Shown: one piece after another, positions 5,703-14,194 of the stretch | Numbering within the stretch: the first letter of the stretch is position 1 | Layout of the letters: each line of letters starts with the position of its first letter | IMG/VR virus record: IMGVR_UViG_3300038301_000484 | Span: 1 to 23,960 of that record | DNA length: 23,960 nt | Direction: 5' to 3' (one strand) | From: a virus | The notes under the pieces: model-generated | What the model saw: only the letters and a program-made list of their open reading frames with translations | Told to the model about the DNA's origin: nothing | Databases searched by the model: none | Position numbers and translations under genes: made by a program

Positions 5703-5784
5703 ACATAGAAATACCATGCCTTACCGAAAGGTTGGGCATGGCCTTCTATGTGGCACGTCGCCCATGGAAAACGACCGAGAGGTC
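5703..5784 (+). promoter_or_regulatory. Structured leader element, copy D (variant second hairpin)
   Basis: ACATAGAA (5703-5710) pairs with TTCTATGT (5744-5751), 8 bp. Inside, CCATGCC (5714-5720) pairs with GGCATGG (5735-5741) and the tip is ACC-GAAA-GGT, a GNRA tetraloop. The second hairpin is GACC-GAGA-GGTC (5773-5784), again a GNRA loop. AAAACAAGGAGAAG and ATG 5805 follow. Confidence 0.75.
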
Positions 5785-5804
5785 AAAACAAGGAGAAGAA
5801 AAAC

Positions 5805-7016
5805 ATGTCAAATCTAAAAGTGGTCCGAAACGACAAGAAAATCAAAGAGCTGGATTCCGCTGTGGAAAAAGTAAAAGCATTTGAGGACGGTTTGAATCAA
5901 ATCGTACTCGAACGCAAAGACGAAGTATCCACGTCGGTGACAGCACTCATAGCAGGATTGAATGTGCTATTCCTAGGCCCTCCGGGGACTGCCAAGTCTT
6001 ACTTGGTTAAGGCAATATCGCAAGCATTGCGGTTTTCATATTTTGAAATCGTAATGAATCCTACTACCGAGCCTAATGAATTGCTTGGCGGCTACGACTT
6101 AACGGAACTTGCAAAGGGAAAATATTCCCGAATGCAGGAAGGAATGATCACCGAAGCAGAGTTGGTATTTTTGGATGAAGTATTCAAAAGCAACTCCGCT
6201 TGTCTTAACCTCTTGCTTCCGATCTTAAACGAGAGGAAGTACAAGGTTGGGAATAAGATGACCGATCTTCCAGTTGTATCTATCTTTGGTGCCTCCAATG
6301 AGCTTCCGGCTAAGGACGAGGGACTCGGAGCTATGTACGACAGATGGCAGGTGAAGCATTGGGTAACACCAATGGACCGAGCTGATAATGTCAAGAAGGT
6401 AATGTGGGGTAAAACCCCGTCACCTGAAGATGTCTTCACTGGGAAGCAGCCCGCCTTGAGCATGGAAGATATTCAAGCCATTCGATCCGCTGCTGAGTTG
6501 GTTACGATCAGCACAGAAGTGGAGAGTATTACCGTTAAGATCAGAGATAGACTCTTTAAGGAAACCCATACGCTTTTGTCCGACAGGAAAATGGTGCAAT
6601 GGGCGAAGTACCTTAAAGCGGATGCCGCCAAGAAGGGAAAGACTTCTGTCTCCCCCGAAGAGCTTTTCAGCTCGGCTTGTCTACTTTGGGATGACCCATC
6701 TTACCTATCAACCGTCAAAGAGGTTGTTGGTGAGATTGCCTGCCCGTGGGTTCTTGAGATCGAACGGGTACAAAAGATCATTTCCAATCAAGAAATTGAA
6801 TTAGAGAAAATGATCGACGACGACGGTACGTCAAGTTCGACTCATACCGAGCGTCAGGCTTATATCAATACGATTGCCGTAAATCTATCCATGGAATTGG
6901 ATAGGATTGAGGACATCCGAAACAAATATAAGGGAAGATCGTCCGACCTTCTTGATGACCTTGAAACAAGAATCAAGGAAATCAAGGATGAGGCACTGTC
7001 CGCCATTCTGAAGTAG
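5805..7016 (+). CDS. MoxR-family AAA+ ATPase, RavA-like
   Basis: The 403-residue product carries Walker A GPPGTAKS (58-65), Walker B VFLDE (121-125) followed by the MoxR-typical NLLLPILNERK (135-145), sensor 1 ASN (163-165) and an arginine-finger candidate in YDR (178-180). EVFKS after Walker B and ASNELP match the RavA subgroup of MoxR, which works with VWA proteins as a chaperone-like remodelling pair. The C-terminal 100 residues are helical and charged. It is shorter than E. coli RavA (about 500 residues), and I see no LARA-like region. It lies directly before the VWA gene, as ravA precedes viaA. Its target is unknown. Confidence 0.9.
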   Translation: MSNLKVVRNDKKIKELDSAVEKVKAFEDGLNQIVLERKDEVSTSVTALIAGLNVLFLGPPGTAKSYLVKAISQALRFSYFEIVMNPTTEPNELLGGYDLTELAKGKYSRMQEGMITEAELVFLDEVFKSNSACLNLLLPILNERKYKVGNKMTDLPVVSIFGASNELPAKDEGLGAMYDRWQVKHWVTPMDRADNVKKVMWGKTPSPEDVFTGKQPALSMEDIQAIRSAAELVTISTEVESITVKIRDRLFKETHTLLSDRKMVQWAKYLKADAAKKGKTSVSPEELFSSACLLWDDPSYLSTVKEVVGEIACPWVLEIERVQKIISNQEIELEKMIDDDGTSSSTHTERQAYINTIAVNLSMELDRIEDIRNKYKGRSSDLLDDLETRIKEIKDEALSAILK

Positions 7017-7125: not shown

Positions 7126-8520
7126 ATGTACGAATTACCGCCAATATCAAATATCTGGTTTGATAGATCAAACCTAAAAGATGTGTCGGATCTTTACTCA
7201 GATAGGATTTCTGAGTGGAAAGATTTTGTACCGCAACTTTTTGGCAAGCTGTTGTTTAACTCTCAAGTCACAGAGAAGCCGGTTGAAGAACAAAGCGAAT
7301 GGGTTAGAAACGCATTCAAAATGTTAGAAAGCAACCCGGACTGGAGGAGCATTGCAAGTGCATCCAGCCATCATCCCGATCTTGCCGTAGAAAATACAGG
7401 CAAGCTATCTCGGATTGTGGCCTCTTCAATGGGGCTTAAAAACCTAGAGCCTAGAAATAGTGAGAAGCCGGAGGAGATAGATAAGCTTATAAAGAAACTT
7501 AAGTCCGAAGGAAAGGACGTTAAGGATCTAAAGAAAAAGCTTAGATCTGCCCGCGCTAAAAGATCAAAGGCTATCATGGAAGCAGAGTCAAACAATCGGT
7601 TGGCTAAGAAGATGGGCATTCTGGCTGAATCGTCCTCGGACAAAAAAGAAGCCATAGCGACACTGCGATCTTTTGGTTTGGTCGGTGACAAAAACAACCT
7701 AAAAGAATCGATTCCTAAAGACCTCATAGAATTGCTATGCGGGAACAAGGAGTTGATGAACCTCATAAAGAGTCTCGGTGGACTGAGAGAAGCCAGGGCA
7801 AAAAATGAGTTAATGTCACCATCAAAGCGGGGTGTATCTATCCATGGAGTAAAGAGCGGAGATAAAGTAGAAGATCTACTTTCCTCTGAACTTGTGAAGC
7901 TAACGGACCCATTGCTAAGTTTAGACTTGCTTGACCGTTTGCAGAACAAAAAGGCTCTGGTTTGGAATAAGAAGGGAAAGTCTCCGAAAGAAAATGGAGA
8001 CATCATTATGATGGTCGATAAGAGCGGATCAATGGGTTGCCCTGTTGATTACTCGGACGAATCCCTAACCATAAACCATTGGGCAAGCTCGGTTGCAGCA
8101 GCAACTGTCTTGAAAGCTGTGAAAAGCAACCGATGTGTCGAGGTCATATTCTTTAATGGTCAGACAGAAACAGTCAGAGTTAACGGGACTCAAGACTTGG
8201 AAGCATTTTTCAATGCTTTATCTTCTGATCCAACCGGAGGAACCAACATGGGTTACGCCATGGAGGAAGCCAAAAAGGCAATGCCGGAACTTAAAAAGCC
8301 GCAAGCCCTAATGGTTTCAGACATGCAGATACCGCCTGGCTTTGAGGTCGAACCGAAGCTGGATTGCCGCCTTGAACTTGTCTTAGTTTCCGATGTGCAG
8401 CATGACAAGGAGCGAATCAAGGAGCAAATCGGAGCAAATGACGTCATGGTTATTGATCCCACCACAATCGGGACAGACCATCGCCATTCGCTTGCCAGCA
8501 ATATAGTTGAGCGGGTTTAG
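7126..8520 (+). CDS. VWA-domain protein, ViaA-like, partner of the MoxR ATPase
   Basis: The product has 464 residues. The N-terminal 290 are helical and very charged (for example a KKLKSEGKDVKDLKKKL-type stretch at about 123-139). The C-terminal VWA domain starts near 291 with all MIDAS parts: DKSGS (298-302), T373 in GGTN and D399 in SDMQ. The long helical N-terminus with a C-terminal VWA matches E. coli ViaA. MIDAS-containing VWA proteins bind metal and work with a MoxR ATPase to remodel protein complexes. The start ATG 7126 has AAACAAGGAGAAGAAAC. What this pair acts on in the phage cycle is not shown by the sequence. Confidence 0.88.
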   Translation: MYELPPISNIWFDRSNLKDVSDLYSDRISEWKDFVPQLFGKLLFNSQVTEKPVEEQSEWVRNAFKMLESNPDWRSIASASSHHPDLAVENTGKLSRIVASSMGLKNLEPRNSEKPEEIDKLIKKLKSEGKDVKDLKKKLRSARAKRSKAIMEAESNNRLAKKMGILAESSSDKKEAIATLRSFGLVGDKNNLKESIPKDLIELLCGNKELMNLIKSLGGLREARAKNELMSPSKRGVSIHGVKSGDKVEDLLSSELVKLTDPLLSLDLLDRLQNKKALVWNKKGKSPKENGDIIMMVDKSGSMGCPVDYSDESLTINHWASSVAAATVLKAVKSNRCVEVIFFNGQTETVRVNGTQDLEAFFNALSSDPTGGTNMGYAMEEAKKAMPELKKPQALMVSDMQIPPGFEVEPKLDCRLELVLVSDVQHDKERIKEQIGANDVMVIDPTTIGTDHRHSLASNIVERV

Positions 8521-8528
8521 GTTTTACT

Positions 8529-8587
8529 TAGACCATGCCACTGCATCCTAACGGGTACAGTGGCAGAATCTACGTAATACCGCGTAG
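8529..8587 (+). promoter_or_regulatory. Structured leader element, copy F
   Basis: TAGA (8529-8532) pairs with TCTA (8569-8572). The main stem TGCCACTG/CAGTGGCA (8536-8543, 8558-8565) carries an inner CC-TAAC-GG tip. The second hairpin CTACGT (8570-8575), loop AATACC, GCGTAG (8582-8587) overlaps the outer helix by CTA, as in copies A and C. Confidence 0.7.
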
Positions 8588-8606
8588 AAAAAACAAGGAG
8601 AAGAAA

Positions 8607-8831
8607 ATGTTTATGATTGCCTACGGAGAATGTATTGCTTGCAAAAGAGACATTCATTTTAACCCGGTTCATGTTCCATCCATTTACGTGGAGGGAATCC
8701 GTGAGCCGCTCTGTGTCAATTGCTTCGACCTATGGAACGAAGTACACCGAGTATCAAAAGACCTGGAGCCAGTCAGCCTTCACCCCCGAGCATATGTGGG
8801 TGAACCAGAACAACTAGACACCGAGTGCTAA
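8607..8831 (+). CDS. Small zinc-ribbon-like protein (74 aa)
   Basis: Start ATG 8607 follows AAACAAGGAGAAGAAA. Two CxxC pairs, CIAC (near residue 10) and CVNC (near 45), are spaced as in a treble-clef or zinc-ribbon site. FNPVHVPSIYVEG lies between them and DLWNEVHR after them, so the protein probably binds one zinc ion. Such small phage proteins may bind nucleic acid or host proteins, but nothing more specific is visible. It is the last gene with the two-hairpin leader; the next follows after 19 bases with a plain binding site. Confidence 0.75.
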   Translation: MFMIAYGECIACKRDIHFNPVHVPSIYVEGIREPLCVNCFDLWNEVHRVSKDLEPVSLHPRAYVGEPEQLDTEC

Positions 8832-8850
8832 ACCAAAGCAGGAGACAAAC

Positions 8851-9198
8851 ATGGAAAACAAGAAAGAAAACACCGTAACATTTAGAAGCCAGCTAATATC
8901 TCACGACTGGAGCTATCAACGATCCGACGACCACAGATACTGGTCCCGAGGAGAAAGACAAAGAAACGAGATAAACGCTACGTACTACCGTCTTAAATGT
9001 CCATTCTCCCTGGGGGATCTAGTGAAGTGGCGGTTTAAGATGATAGTTGAAGACTTCACAGAAGTTGAGCCGGACTGCTGGTTCCGACTGCCTAAGAAGT
9101 ACAAGCACATGGCACCAGAAAGACGGGATGGACTCATAGAGAGATCCCGGTTCGATGAGATAGAGCGGTGGATGGAAGAGAATGATACCGCCGAATAA
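8851..9198 (+). CDS. Hypothetical protein (115 aa)
   Basis: ATG 8851 follows AAGCAGGAGACAAAC. The protein is rich in Arg, Trp and acidic residues (HDWSYQRSDDHRYWSRGERQR, split by charge; later KWRFKMIVEDFTEVEPDCWFRLPKK). It ends in a helical acidic tail, RFDEIERWMEENDTAE. No motif or family is recognised. It appears to close this part of the operon, because a hairpin-rich non-coding stretch of nearly 300 bases with three 40-bp elements follows. Confidence 0.75.
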   Translation: MENKKENTVTFRSQLISHDWSYQRSDDHRYWSRGERQRNEINATYYRLKCPFSLGDLVKWRFKMIVEDFTEVEPDCWFRLPKKYKHMAPERRDGLIERSRFDEIERWMEENDTAE

Positions 9199-10946: not shown

Positions 10947-11184
10947 ACCTCTCTGGACATTCGTCGTAGTGAGGTATCCCATCAGACGTGTATGGCGACA
11001 TCTTATTTTTCTCAGACGGCACCCACCAGATGGACCTGGAGCAGAATCGGCATTCGTCTTTCTCTGCTCCTATGTGTTCATAGAGTGAGGATATCTTCGC
11101 CCTGTAAAAGACTGCTGCCCTCTTCTTTGTTATATTTACAACTTCCCTTATCTGCTCTTTTTCTCTGTCTTCTTTCTTAGTCAC
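10945..11184 (-). CDS. Small zinc-binding-like protein (79 aa)
   Basis: The start is a GTG at 11184 with GGAGG five bases upstream, inside the end of the helicase-loader gene (8-base overlap). The N-terminal half is a charged helix (KKEDREKEQIREVVNITKKR). The C-terminal half carries CRFC, then HYDEC, a CxxC...HxxxC set that could bind zinc. It is the last gene of the minus-strand replication operon. The family is not recognised. Confidence 0.7.
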   Translation of the reverse strand: MTKKEDREKEQIREVVNITKKRAAVFYRAKISSLYEHIGAEKDECRFCSRSIWWVPSEKNKMSPYTSDGIPHYDECPER

Positions 11185-11956
11185 GGTTGCCTCCCTTGGC
11201 CCTTAGAGACCTTCCTTTGCATTCAGCCCAGCCACTTCCACCACTGTCTTTGTGGTGAAGCATTCTATCCAGCATATCGTTCCCATAGGATTCAAAGAAC
11301 TGCTGCTTGTTGGACCTTGTTGTCAGAATCGTACCTCTGCCTTGATCATGTCGCTCAGTTGCTATCATCGAAATAACCCTTATCGGGTTGTTCATGTCAC
11401 CAGCCTTTGTCAGGCTTGCAATTTCGTCAAACACCACCACGCCTGGACAATGAACGAGATCCTTTATTGCGTAGTCCTCGCCCTCCACCTTCCACGGGGC
11501 AATCATCGACCATTCAGATCTGGATAAAAACCTTCCCCTTGTCACCCATGCGGCCCAGCAAGAAGAAACTGTCTTGCCTAAACCGTTGTGTCCTGATAGA
11601 CAAAGGAGGCCATGCTTTGGCGCAATCACGTACCTGGAGACAATCTTTGCTGAGTCAAGGTTGTCTCCTTTTTTTGTCAATGCTGGCTCCTGATTGTTCC
11701 ACTGCAAGCCCAGTATCTCTGCCGTAACCTTTGGAACGCCAACCCTCGCCACCTCTCTTTCATACTTGTCCTTTACACCCATCTCCTCGTCCCTGTACTG
11801 AGCATCCACAAAAACCTGCTCCTGCCTCATCTCCTCACAGCATGATGGACACATGCACCCATCTGTGCCGATAATGAAGTCAAATGCAAATGGAACCACA
11901 CCTTCGCATCTGACACACTCAGCATCTTTTATGAGATTATTAAACTCAATTCCCAT
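11177..11956 (-). CDS. DnaC/IstB-like helicase loader ATPase
   Basis: The 259-residue product has an N-terminal zinc-ribbon-like part (CVRC at 14-17, CMCPSCC at 34-40). An AAA+ domain follows with Walker A GHNGLGKT (122-129), Walker B VVVFDE (173-178), sensor 1 TTRSN (212-216) and an arginine in DRM (230-232). This is the pattern of DnaC-type loaders, which place the replicative DnaB helicase at an origin. No helicase gene is in the window, so it may load the host enzyme, as lambda P does. ATG 11956 is chosen because GGAGG lies seven bases before it; the ATG nearer to the site would be too close. It follows the initiator gene that contains a probable origin. Confidence 0.85.
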   Translation of the reverse strand: MGIEFNNLIKDAECVRCEGVVPFAFDFIIGTDGCMCPSCCEEMRQEQVFVDAQYRDEEMGVKDKYEREVARVGVPKVTAEILGLQWNNQEPALTKKGDNLDSAKIVSRYVIAPKHGLLCLSGHNGLGKTVSSCWAAWVTRGRFLSRSEWSMIAPWKVEGEDYAIKDLVHCPGVVVFDEIASLTKAGDMNNPIRVISMIATERHDQGRGTILTTRSNKQQFFESYGNDMLDRMLHHKDSGGSGWAECKGRSLRAKGGNRD

Positions 11957-12143
11957 GGTCATTCCTCCATCTGTCCCAGCACTCATCAAACTTATCTAGG
12001 AAATATGTATTCCCTGTCCTCTCGGCGGACCTAACCAGTATCTCCCTGTACTCGTGCGTTGCGCCATGAAGGTCCTCGTTCGCAAAAACCCCATACTTCT
12101 TAAAATCATTTCTTAGCTCTTTCCCACTCTTCCTTCGTGTCAT
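11946..12143 (-). CDS. Hypothetical protein between initiator and loader (65 aa)
   Basis: It overlaps the end of the initiator gene by 38 bases and the start of the helicase loader by 11. GGACGAGGGAT precedes its ATG. The protein is basic at the start (MTRRKSGKELRNDFKKYG) and ends acidic and aromatic (FLDKFDECWDRWRNDHGN). No motif is recognised. Its place between an O-like and a P-like gene suggests a role in replication initiation, but that is inference from position. Confidence 0.65.
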   Translation of the reverse strand: MTRRKSGKELRNDFKKYGVFANEDLHGATHEYREILVRSAERTGNTYFLDKFDECWDRWRNDHGN

Positions 12144-13128
12144 ATCCCTCGTCCTTCCATGGACCCCAGTCCATATTGTTGTTTTTCAGTAAAGACTGAT
12201 CATCTGCAAGTGACAGCCATTTGTCAACATCCCTAACAACATAACGCCATGCGTTATGCTCTTTCCTTTTTTTCCATGGGTCTTTTGCCATACCTTTCAC
12301 TGCCCGGCAGACCTCACTTGGCTTGCGCTTTTCTTTTACACATAAAGCTTTAACGGCCTTTAAAAGCTCCTGAGAGTGCGGGCTGACCTTGCTACCCCAT
12401 GTCTCCCTGTGAACCTGGGCAAAGGCTTCCTTGATGGAATCTGTAGCCAGAATCCTGGCAGGCGTTAAGTGGTCTGCCTCCCCAGCCTCAACCTGATCTT
12501 TCGTAAAAGGACCAAAAGAGTTATTGTTATTATAATTATAATTACTAATTAAACTAACCCCCTCTTTTTCTTTCTGGTCAGGGGACTCTGAGGATTCCCT
12601 ATTGTTTTCATGGGTTTCCAGTTGTAGATGTCTACATTCTGTATGTAGATGTCTACTGTTTCCCTGTAGATGTCTACCATCTCCACCCTGTAGATCTCTA
12701 CCTTTTGCCTGTAGATCTCTGCAAGGTGCCTTCTTCTTTTTCTTCCTCCACCTGGCCTGAGCCTGTGTCTTCTTTTTCCTTTCTGTGAGGGTCCTTCCGC
12801 TCCATTCGTCCCACCCTGGCACTCTGAGGTGACCATCATCCCACCTTAGAAAGCCAGAATCCACCAGAAGCCCTGGGATCGACTCCAGGCTTGTGGTACA
12901 CAGAGACTCGTCTGGGTCGGAGTAAACGCAACTGAGGGCATCAGAGAGTCCCTGACGCAGCATCGAAAGACCATCTTCGCCAAGATTCCCTGATGGATTA
13001 TTTCTTAAAATGTGCGACCAGGTAATCTGCAAGACCCCCATTGCCTTCAGTGGATCCATTCCGCTTACCTCTAAAAGCGTTAGAAACTTGTCGCTTTCTG
13101 TTAACGATGGGCTAATTACGATAAACAC
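12106..13128 (-). CDS. Replication initiator, DnaD/lambda-O-like, with internal origin
   Basis: I place the start at GTG 13128, six bases after GGGAGG, giving 340 residues; the longer frame to 13365 crosses the divergent promoters. Residues 1-120 resemble a winged-helix DNA-binding domain of phage replisome organisers (SLTESDKFLTLLEVSGMDP; GLLVDSGFLRWDDGHLRVPGW, split). Then comes a Lys/Arg linker (WRKKKKKAP). Residues about 136-169 are the repeat R-D/H-L-Q-x-x-x, encoded by palindromic iterons. Next is an Asn/Tyr-rich tract and a C-terminal helical domain (SIKEAFAQVHRETWG to DVDKWLSLADD). It should bind its own iterons and recruit the downstream loader, as lambda O does with P. Confidence 0.8.
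   Translation of the reverse strand: MFIVISPSLTESDKFLTLLEVSGMDPLKAMGVLQITWSHILRNNPSGNLGEDGLSMLRQGLSDALSCVYSDPDESLCTTSLESIPGLLVDSGFLRWDDGHLRVPGWDEWSGRTLTERKKKTQAQARWRKKKKKAPCRDLQAKGRDLQGGDGRHLQGNSRHLHTECRHLQLETHENNRESSESPDQKEKEGVSLISNYNYNNNNSFGPFTKDQVEAGEADHLTPARILATDSIKEAFAQVHRETWGSKVSPHSQELLKAVKALCVKEKRKPSEVCRAVKGMAKDPWKKRKEHNAWRYVVRDVDKWLSLADDQSLLKNNNMDWGPWKDEGYDTKEEWERAKK
12520..12557. other. AT-rich tract, candidate DNA-unwinding element
   Basis: An almost pure A/T stretch containing TTATTGTTATTATAATTA encodes the SNYNYNNNN part of the initiator. It lies about 65 bp beyond the last iteron in the direction of the gene, the same order as iterons and AT-rich region in the lambda origin. Confidence 0.65.
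12624..12722. repeat. Five palindromic iterons, candidate replication origin
   Basis: GTAGATGTCTAC (inverted repeat GTAGA-TG-TCTAC) starts at 12624, 12645 and 12666. GTAGATCTCTAC lies at 12690 and GTAGATCTCTGC at 12711. Spacings are 21, 21, 24 and 21 bp, about two helical turns and multiples of three because the repeats are in frame within the initiator gene. In lambda, four iterons lie inside gene O in the same way. Confidence 0.8.
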
Positions 13129-13148
13129 AAATATCCTCCCTTTTTTAC

Positions 13149-13177
13149 TTGCACGTATTGCGAGCCTACTATATGAT
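13149..13177 (+). promoter_or_regulatory. Promoter for the recombination operon
   Basis: TTGCAC (13149-13154), 17 bases, TATGAT (13172-13177; one mismatch to TATAAT). The start codon at 13208 is about 24 bases after the expected transcription start. It overlaps the oppositely directed promoter at 13168-13196 and includes GCACGTATTG (13151-13160), also found at 10839-10848. Confidence 0.55.
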
Positions 13178-13196
13178 CTCACCTGCCTCATGGCAA
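13168..13196 (-). promoter_or_regulatory. Promoter for the replication operon
   Basis: On the minus strand TTGCCA (13196-13191), 17 bases, TATAGT (13173-13168): five of six matches in each box. Its -10 overlaps that of the plus-strand promoter, so the two should compete for polymerase. The initiator GTG is about 33 bases downstream of the expected start. Confidence 0.6.
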
Positions 13197-13207
13197 GGAG
13201 AAAGATA

Positions 13208-14194
13208 ATGTTAACTAAAAAGCAGATAAGAGAGAGAACCACAGGCATTGCTGGCTCTGATGTAGCCAAGCTTGTGGGCGTAAGCCCCTTTGGGAACGAG
13301 TTTGATGTCTTCATGGCCAAGACCTCGCCTGAGCTTGAAGACAGCTTTAACGTGTCCCCTGCCATGAGATGGGGTCATAGAAAAGAGCCAATAATCGCAG
13401 ATGAATACGCCGAGGTTCACAATGTTGAGCTTGAGGAATGCGATACGCTGCGCCACAAACATCATGATATATGGCTCGGGACCCCAGACCGAAAGGTGTT
13501 CAAGAATGGCGACTTTGTAAGAGGTCTTGAGATTAAAACGGCTGGTCACTACAAGGCTAAAGAGTGGGGGAAAGAGGGAACAGATGGGATTCCTCTGTAT
13601 TACCTTTGCCAGGTTATGTGGTATATGCCCCTAATAGATGCGCGTGAGATGGACGTTGCAGTCCTTATTGGAAGCAGCGACTATAGGGAATACAGGGTAA
13701 GGCGCGACGACGACCTGCTTGACATGATGTGGGATAAGGCTGAGTTCTTCTGGAGACATAATGTGCAGAAAAAGAACCCTCCCCAGGTGGATGGCAGTGA
13801 TTCTTGCAGAAAATTCCTTCACGAAAAGTACAGCAGCCCGAGCGAGGATATGATCCAGGCAGATCAGCGAATGACAGACCTTGCCGGAACCCTTCACGAC
13901 ACAAGGGTAACCCTTGATGCCTTAACCGAGAAGAAGAAATTTCTTGAGAATGAAATAAGAAGCATCATTGGTGACTCCAGAGGCATTGAAGGGGAAAGAT
14001 TTAAGGCAACTTGGTCTCCTCAGTCTGGAAGAACATTTATCGACTGGAAGGGGGTCGCGGGAAAGATTGCCAACACGCTGAAGGGGCATGTTGGTCCAGA
14101 TGCAGTAGAAAAATTGGTGGACGAGACAGCAAGGTCCTACACCAAAAAATCAAACACTAGAACCTTCCGGTTTAACTGGAAGAAAGGGGAGTGA
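13208..14194 (+). CDS. YqaJ/lambda-exonuclease-like recombination nuclease
   Basis: The start ATG 13208 has AAGGAG seven bases upstream. The 328-residue protein shows the YqaJ viral recombinase pattern: GIAGSDVAKLVGVSPF (13-28), RWGHRKEP (54-61, with E60), GTPD (91-94, with D94), LEIKTA (107-112, the E-x-K part of the PD-(D/E)XK site) and YLCQVMWYM (132-140). These enzymes resect double-stranded ends 5' to 3' and hand the single strand to an annealing protein. The C-terminal 110 residues are helical. It heads the plus-strand operon and is followed after one base by a RecT-like gene, the usual partner. Confidence 0.88.
   Translation: MLTKKQIRERTTGIAGSDVAKLVGVSPFGNEFDVFMAKTSPELEDSFNVSPAMRWGHRKEPIIADEYAEVHNVELEECDTLRHKHHDIWLGTPDRKVFKNGDFVRGLEIKTAGHYKAKEWGKEGTDGIPLYYLCQVMWYMPLIDAREMDVAVLIGSSDYREYRVRRDDDLLDMMWDKAEFFWRHNVQKKNPPQVDGSDSCRKFLHEKYSSPSEDMIQADQRMTDLAGTLHDTRVTLDALTEKKKFLENEIRSIIGDSRGIEGERFKATWSPQSGRTFIDWKGVAGKIANTLKGHVGPDAVEKLVDETARSYTKKSNTRTFRFNWKKGE

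Follow-up and report, generated by a model that had tools for sequence, protein, structure and literature searches.

Can a phage keep its origin of replication inside the coding sequence of its own initiator? The question is raised by an IMG/VR virus contig of 23,960 bases, analysed here as the whole record (the window), in which a replication initiator gene holds an array of palindromic iterons followed by an AT-rich tract. Such a plan has precedents. In lambda, inverted repeats midway through gene O serve as iterons, and unwinding, though not binding, requires the AT tract (PMC7466680, in the part of the article available). In SPP1, gp38 binds the oriL repeats within gene 38, which are accompanied by an AT-rich unwinding element and a loader; a second origin, oriR, lies about 13 kbp away and the phage encodes its own DnaB-like helicase (PMC6316719, likewise in the part available). 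The features of the window on which our argument is built are listed here, with the iterons numbered in the direction of the gene.

12106-13128, minus strand: replication initiator gene, with an N-terminal winged-helix-like domain, a predicted disordered linker carrying the putative origin, and a helical C-terminal domain
12711-12722, minus strand: iteron 1, GA centre, one arm mismatch
12690-12701, minus strand: iteron 2, GA centre
12666-12677, minus strand: iteron 3, CA centre
12645-12656, minus strand: iteron 4, CA centre
12624-12635, minus strand: iteron 5, CA centre, closest to the AT tract, its flanks likewise conserved in the relative L005
12554-12623, minus strand: conserved DNA from the last iteron to the AT tract, with the same codon in L005 for 14/14 shared residues (170-191)
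12514-12553, no strand assigned: AT-rich tract, putative DNA unwinding element, 90% AT, the least stable 40 bp
11177-11989, minus strand: DnaC-like AAA+ helicase loader, Walker A GHNGLGKT, matching PHROG phrog_50 'DnaC-like helicase loader' (5.6e-6)

The pattern GTAGA-NN-TCTAC is found at five sites about 400-500 nt into the initiator gene, four of them perfect and one with a single mismatch. On the plus strand they start at 12624, 12645, 12666 (GTAGATGTCTAC), 12690 (GTAGATCTCTAC) and 12711 (GTAGATCTCTGC, one arm mismatch). Five in-gene palindromes spaced by 21, 21, 24 and 21 bp, three with TG and two with TC centres, had been proposed in a sequence-only reading of this DNA, and the site positions bear this out. 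Exact copies of GTAGANNTCTAC number 4 in the 23,960-base record, and every one belongs to this array; the reversed pattern of GTAGANNTCTAC has 0 occurrences in the record, which also holds no second iteron set. When up to 2 mismatches are allowed, the record contains 17 matches against 7.2 +/- 2.7 in dinucleotide shuffles, and 0 of 100 shuffles reach 17.

Viral contigs were searched with the window proteins, their alignments and the L061 protein, which yielded two relatives carrying both genes; the case for conservation thus rests on three sequences. L005 (9,153 bp) has an initiator 67% and a loader 65% identical to those of the window. The second relative was first met through the DNA pattern search, as L011, and is a single 56,891-bp contig also handled as L061 and L086, with an initiator 31% and a loader 44% identical. 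The order from initiator to loader is common to the window and both relatives. L005 carries five perfect sites spaced by 21, 24, 21 and 21 bp in the gene direction, as in the window. L061 carries four GTAGACGTCTAC sites, of which two are read as CRRL and two, in another frame, as VDVY; the RHL/RDL peptide of the window iterons is not retained there. Because L061 reads one palindrome in two frames, it is the DNA and not the peptide that is conserved. The iterons were expected to persist while codons drift, and they do so in both relatives found; a peptide repeat kept after loss of the palindromes, which would speak against an origin, was sought in the same two relatives and the reverse was seen. 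Conservation gives no support to the suggestion of different affinities for the TG and TC groups: on the gene strand iteron 1 has a GA centre in the window and a CA centre in L005, and all four L061 sites have CG. The spacers vary within each of the three arrays.

A stricter null, in which synonymous codons were shuffled within the gene 2000 times with protein and codon usage preserved, left the sites far above chance. Exact sites numbered 4 in the window (shuffle mean 0.08, maximum 1), 5 in L005 (0.11, 2) and 4 in L061 (0.04, 2), counts that 0 of 2000 shuffles reached in each case. With one mismatch allowed, the observed counts were reached by 0, 1 and 0 of 2000 shuffles (window, L005, L061). 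In the window and L005 together, the iteron arginine codons are AGA in 10/10 cases, against 11/36 elsewhere in both genes, and the iteron leucine codons are CTA in 10/10, against 4/65. The linkers of the window and L005 use the same codon for 44 of 48 shared residues, and the remainder of the two genes does so for 103 of 168 (one-sided Fisher test, P 2e-5); the linker was taken as residues 135-210, bounds chosen to span the iterons to the AT tract, and Met and Trp were excluded. For the iterons alone the figures are 17/19 and 130/197 (P 0.026). Since the stretch between the last iteron and the AT tract keeps 14/14 codons, the constrained element exceeds the palindromes.

An AT-rich tract after the iterons in the gene direction had likewise been noted, and it is found on the loader side. 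By nearest-neighbour energy, 12514-12553 is the weakest 40-bp stretch of the 23,960 bp, and the homologous tract also ranks first in L005 (9,153 bp) and in L061 (11,146 bp); as a control, the lambda AT tract ranks first in a 1,901-bp stretch. The AT count of the tract was reached by 19 (window), 41 (L005), 0 (L061) and 34 (lambda O) of 2000 synonymous shuffles each. In the window 70 bp separate the tract from the last iteron, against 73 bp in L005 and 103 bp in L061. GC skew, suggested as a check, proved uninformative: it follows gene direction, switching sign near 11,000 and 13,000-13,500 where the direction changes, and so does not locate an origin.

The gene at 12106-13128 (minus strand) encodes a protein of about 340 residues. 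Its start codon is probably the GTG at 13126-13128, which is preceded by GGGAGG and at which the homology with L005 begins. The N-terminal half matches PHROG 9474, 'replication initiation protein', at 8.2e-8 (2e-10 for L005, 2.3e-8 for L011), and the PHROG matches of the window protein, 9474 and 2447, are both replication initiators; in a profile comparison with a set of six phage initiators (A5), hhalign gave 96.8% and an E of 2e-10. Neither PHROG nor the profile comparison matched anything past residue about 182, which leaves the C-terminal domain unmatched. Nothing scored above cut-off in Pfam or NCBIfam and no DnaD domain model was matched. Of the earlier description of a DnaD-like initiator, the initiator part therefore stands on PHROG 9474 and 2447 and the DnaD name finds no support in Pfam or NCBIfam. 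The AlphaFold2 model is modest to weak (pLDDT 66, pTM 0.38), with a winged-helix-like N-terminal part, residues 133-203 at pLDDT <50 and a helical C-terminal domain. Residues 133-203 are thus predicted to form a disordered linker; the iterons fall in the DNA that encodes it, as does almost the whole AT tract. Disorder would be expected of a protein stretch that has to accommodate an origin. Searches of the PDB by sequence and by fold gave no informative match; the best VIA-align hit (Z 6.7, in a range that the tool calls common) was an unrelated enzyme over 77 residues and was rejected. A viral fold library returned 3 matches to the model at E <= 0.001, including a replisome organizer (TM about 0.25) and a primosomal protein, with low TM-scores over the whole of a weak model.

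The loader that the sequence-only reading placed downstream of the initiator is indeed there, as the next gene but one (11177-11989). The L005 homologue matches phrog_50 at 1.2e-9, phrog_3277 was also matched among loaders, and the score against Pfam AAA fell below cut-off. The L061 loader matches no phrog loader, yet shows the same motifs in a three-way alignment with those of the window and L005. Near the N-terminus, cysteines C25, C28, C45, C47 and C50 (window numbering) are invariant in all three loaders, which suggests a small zinc-binding domain before the AAA+ part. Between initiator and loader lies a 65-codon ORF (11946-12143, minus strand), conserved in L005 (5191-5388, plus strand). 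In both, its start falls within the last part of the initiator gene and is read in a different frame; it has no PHROG match at 0.01. In L061 the loader overlaps the initiator directly, in place of this ORF. RecE-like and RecT-like genes are found on the divergent side in the window and in L011. A MoxR-type AAA+ ATPase (5748-7016; bpMoxR, 2.2e-46) adjoins a VWA-domain protein (7126-8520; 3.5e-8), both on the plus strand, and L005 has a similar VWA-type ORF, by eye, at 7999-9081.

How close is this arrangement to known origins? The lambda ori in gene O, including that of Stx lambdoid phages, likewise has its several inverted-repeat iterons midway along the initiator gene (PMC7466680, in the part available). 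Its iteron starts are 20, 24 and 23 bp apart, against 21, 21, 24 and 21 bp in the window, and in both the AT tract lies downstream of the iterons and is followed by the loader gene (in lambda, P is next). The likeness is one of plan. Lambda O has no detectable homology to the window initiator (hhalign probability 0.3%, E 0.18), the iteron sequences are unrelated, and the 3 bp between last iteron and AT tract in lambda is a real difference from the 70 bp of the window. The window loader is AAA+ and DnaC-like; lambda P is not known to be a loader of that type. Lambda O, taken as a control, gives the same signals, its in-gene 9-mer repeats being reached by 1 of 2000 synonymous shuffles. The proposed O-ori-P plan with an unrelated iteron is supported, and it holds in the window and two relatives. 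SPP1 gp38, oriL and gp39 similarly combine repeats in the initiator gene, an AT-rich element and a loader, a likeness of layout; SPP1 differs in having oriR and its own DnaB-like helicase (PMC6316719, in the part available), whereas the window record is without a second iteron set.

Among annotated phages, tblastn at E 0.01 found no match for the window or L011 initiators, for the loader, or for two motif-bearing contigs discussed below (L064, L012). With the N-terminal half of the L005 protein and E up to 10, it returned 7 records, the best being Faecalibacterium phage FP_Lagaffe (E 0.2). The initiator of this phage (gp47) is an example of PHROG 9474, whose members have an N-terminal domain homologous to that of the window and leave the window C-terminal domain unmatched. 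Like the window, FP_Lagaffe has a repeat in its linker DNA, AGAGTAGACCAGA three times, with a different repeat sequence and no GTAGANNTCTAC even at one mismatch. This repeat (gene positions 431-470 of L074 2501-3367) shares GTAGAC with the L061 iteron, which may be chance.

The motif was also sought outside these phages. Searching IMG/VR with two strict patterns for site pairs (gaps 7-14 and 15-45) retrieved 12 distinct contigs. In three the motif lies inside initiator-like genes (L005, L011, and L064, which matches phrog_428 at 1e-5), in L006 the sites adjoin a phrog_270 initiator gene, and the L012 motif falls in an ORF that matches no family. For the other 7, the ORFs read gave no initiator link, with no enclosing ORF reported for L008, L065 and L066; a looser pattern gave six further contigs, none initiator-like by eye. 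In L006, three exact GTAGANNTCTAC, one pair of them 22 bp apart, occupy 1421-1524 around the start of the phrog_270 initiator ORF, and this cluster comes after a replisome-organizer ORF. In L064, a winged-helix initiator-like ORF contains three GTAGANNTCTAC at 13447-13536, read as VDFY/VEFY and followed by an AT-rich stretch. Its signal is weaker against synonymous shuffles, its 3 exact sites being reached by 3 of 2000 and its one-mismatch count by 334 of 2000, and in L012 no AT tract stands out, the AT count being reached by 749 of 2000. These contigs (L064, L006, possibly L012) were moreover chosen by the search motif itself, and a shared origin code among them is not established. We regard it as doubtful, though conceivable, that TGTAGANNTCTACA is a recurring origin address of several divergent phage initiators, placed within one gene in whichever frame is open (CRRL or VDVY); it is a possibility and no stronger a claim because L064 is weaker against shuffles, L012 shows no outstanding AT tract and most contigs lack an initiator link. 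If true, this would offer a natural example of an origin whose evolution is nearly uncoupled from the protein in which it is written.

Bacterial genomes also contain the same 12-mer pair pattern, in other contexts (44 stretches, short ones throughout), and the motif alone is thus not diagnostic. Bacterial contigs L015, L038, L039, L047 and L049 carry GTAGANNTCTAC arrays with a 21-bp period, apparently unrelated to phage initiators. In the collection of papers searched, none prints GTAGACGTCTAC, and for three other 12-mers and one 14-mer the matches were unrelated as judged from titles and the opening of abstracts.

In-gene repeats as such are common, being seen in most other phage initiators sampled. 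Our survey covered 13 initiator genes, lambda O included, with 10 records drawn from 40 of 128 listed. In 10 of the 13, in-gene 9-mer repeats were reached by 0 of 500 synonymous shuffles, mostly each with its own sequence; four of those 10 are simple purine or ACCCG-type tracts (L077-L080), and L075, L076 and L081 have no such repeats. GTAGA/TCTAC half-sites stand out in one of the 13 (L074, 5/500 shuffles).

Taken together, we think it very likely that the iterons and AT tract form a theta-type phage origin housed in the linker region of the gene for its own initiator. They are best read as an origin of the lambda O-ori-P or SPP1 gp38-oriL kind that uses an iteron of its own, and the initiator has no detectable homology to lambda O. 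By analogy with those systems, the initiator would use its N-terminal winged-helix domain to bind the five palindromic iterons, probably as a dimer. Because they are about two helical turns apart, the iterons would lie roughly on one face of the DNA, and the filled array may form a nucleoprotein complex by which the AT-rich tract, on the side of the loader gene, is melted. Placing a host DnaB-type helicase on the opened strands would then fall to the C-terminal domain together with the AAA+ loader, and replication would start here.

The palindromes could instead be an operator, serving a repressor or autoregulation by the initiator, and not an origin. The pair pattern in 44 short bacterial stretches fits this, as does the L006 pair lying in front of an O-like gene. 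We find it improbable: the sites lie some 400-500 nt into the coding sequence, each of three phages has four or five of them, the weakest DNA of the record or stretch comes after them in all three, and the DNA from the iterons up to the AT tract is constrained too. It is more improbable still that this is a protein repeat or a minisatellite, with selection acting on the linker peptide (R-H/D-L) or the array being a recent tandem duplication. The 21-bp step does equal seven codons, and there are the bacterial GTAGANNTCTAC arrays of 21-bp period. Against this, L061 reads the palindrome in two frames without conserving the peptide, spacers differ within each array, synonymous shuffles destroy the sites while the peptide stays intact, and the linker is predicted to be disordered. 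Hairpins controlling translation or stability of the initiator mRNA are just as hard to credit, for although palindromes can pair in RNA and the arrays fold at raw MFE values of -37 to -54 kcal/mol in the window, L005 and L061, two-base centres make poor single hairpins, the folded pairing differs between relatives, and the AT tract that always follows the array is left unexplained.

Read as an in-gene origin, the locus holds a modest surprise, because the plan has long been known from lambda and SPP1. Two points are worth keeping: the two-frame palindrome in L061, and the recurrence of the motif within or next to a few further initiator-like genes (L064, L006, possibly L012). One palindrome is retained although a single gene reads it in two frames and protein identity is down to 31%, a demonstration from sequence data that selection on DNA holds an in-gene origin. 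Origins in uncultured phages could also be sought by a simple screen that combines shuffle-resistant repeats with the weakest DNA of the genome.
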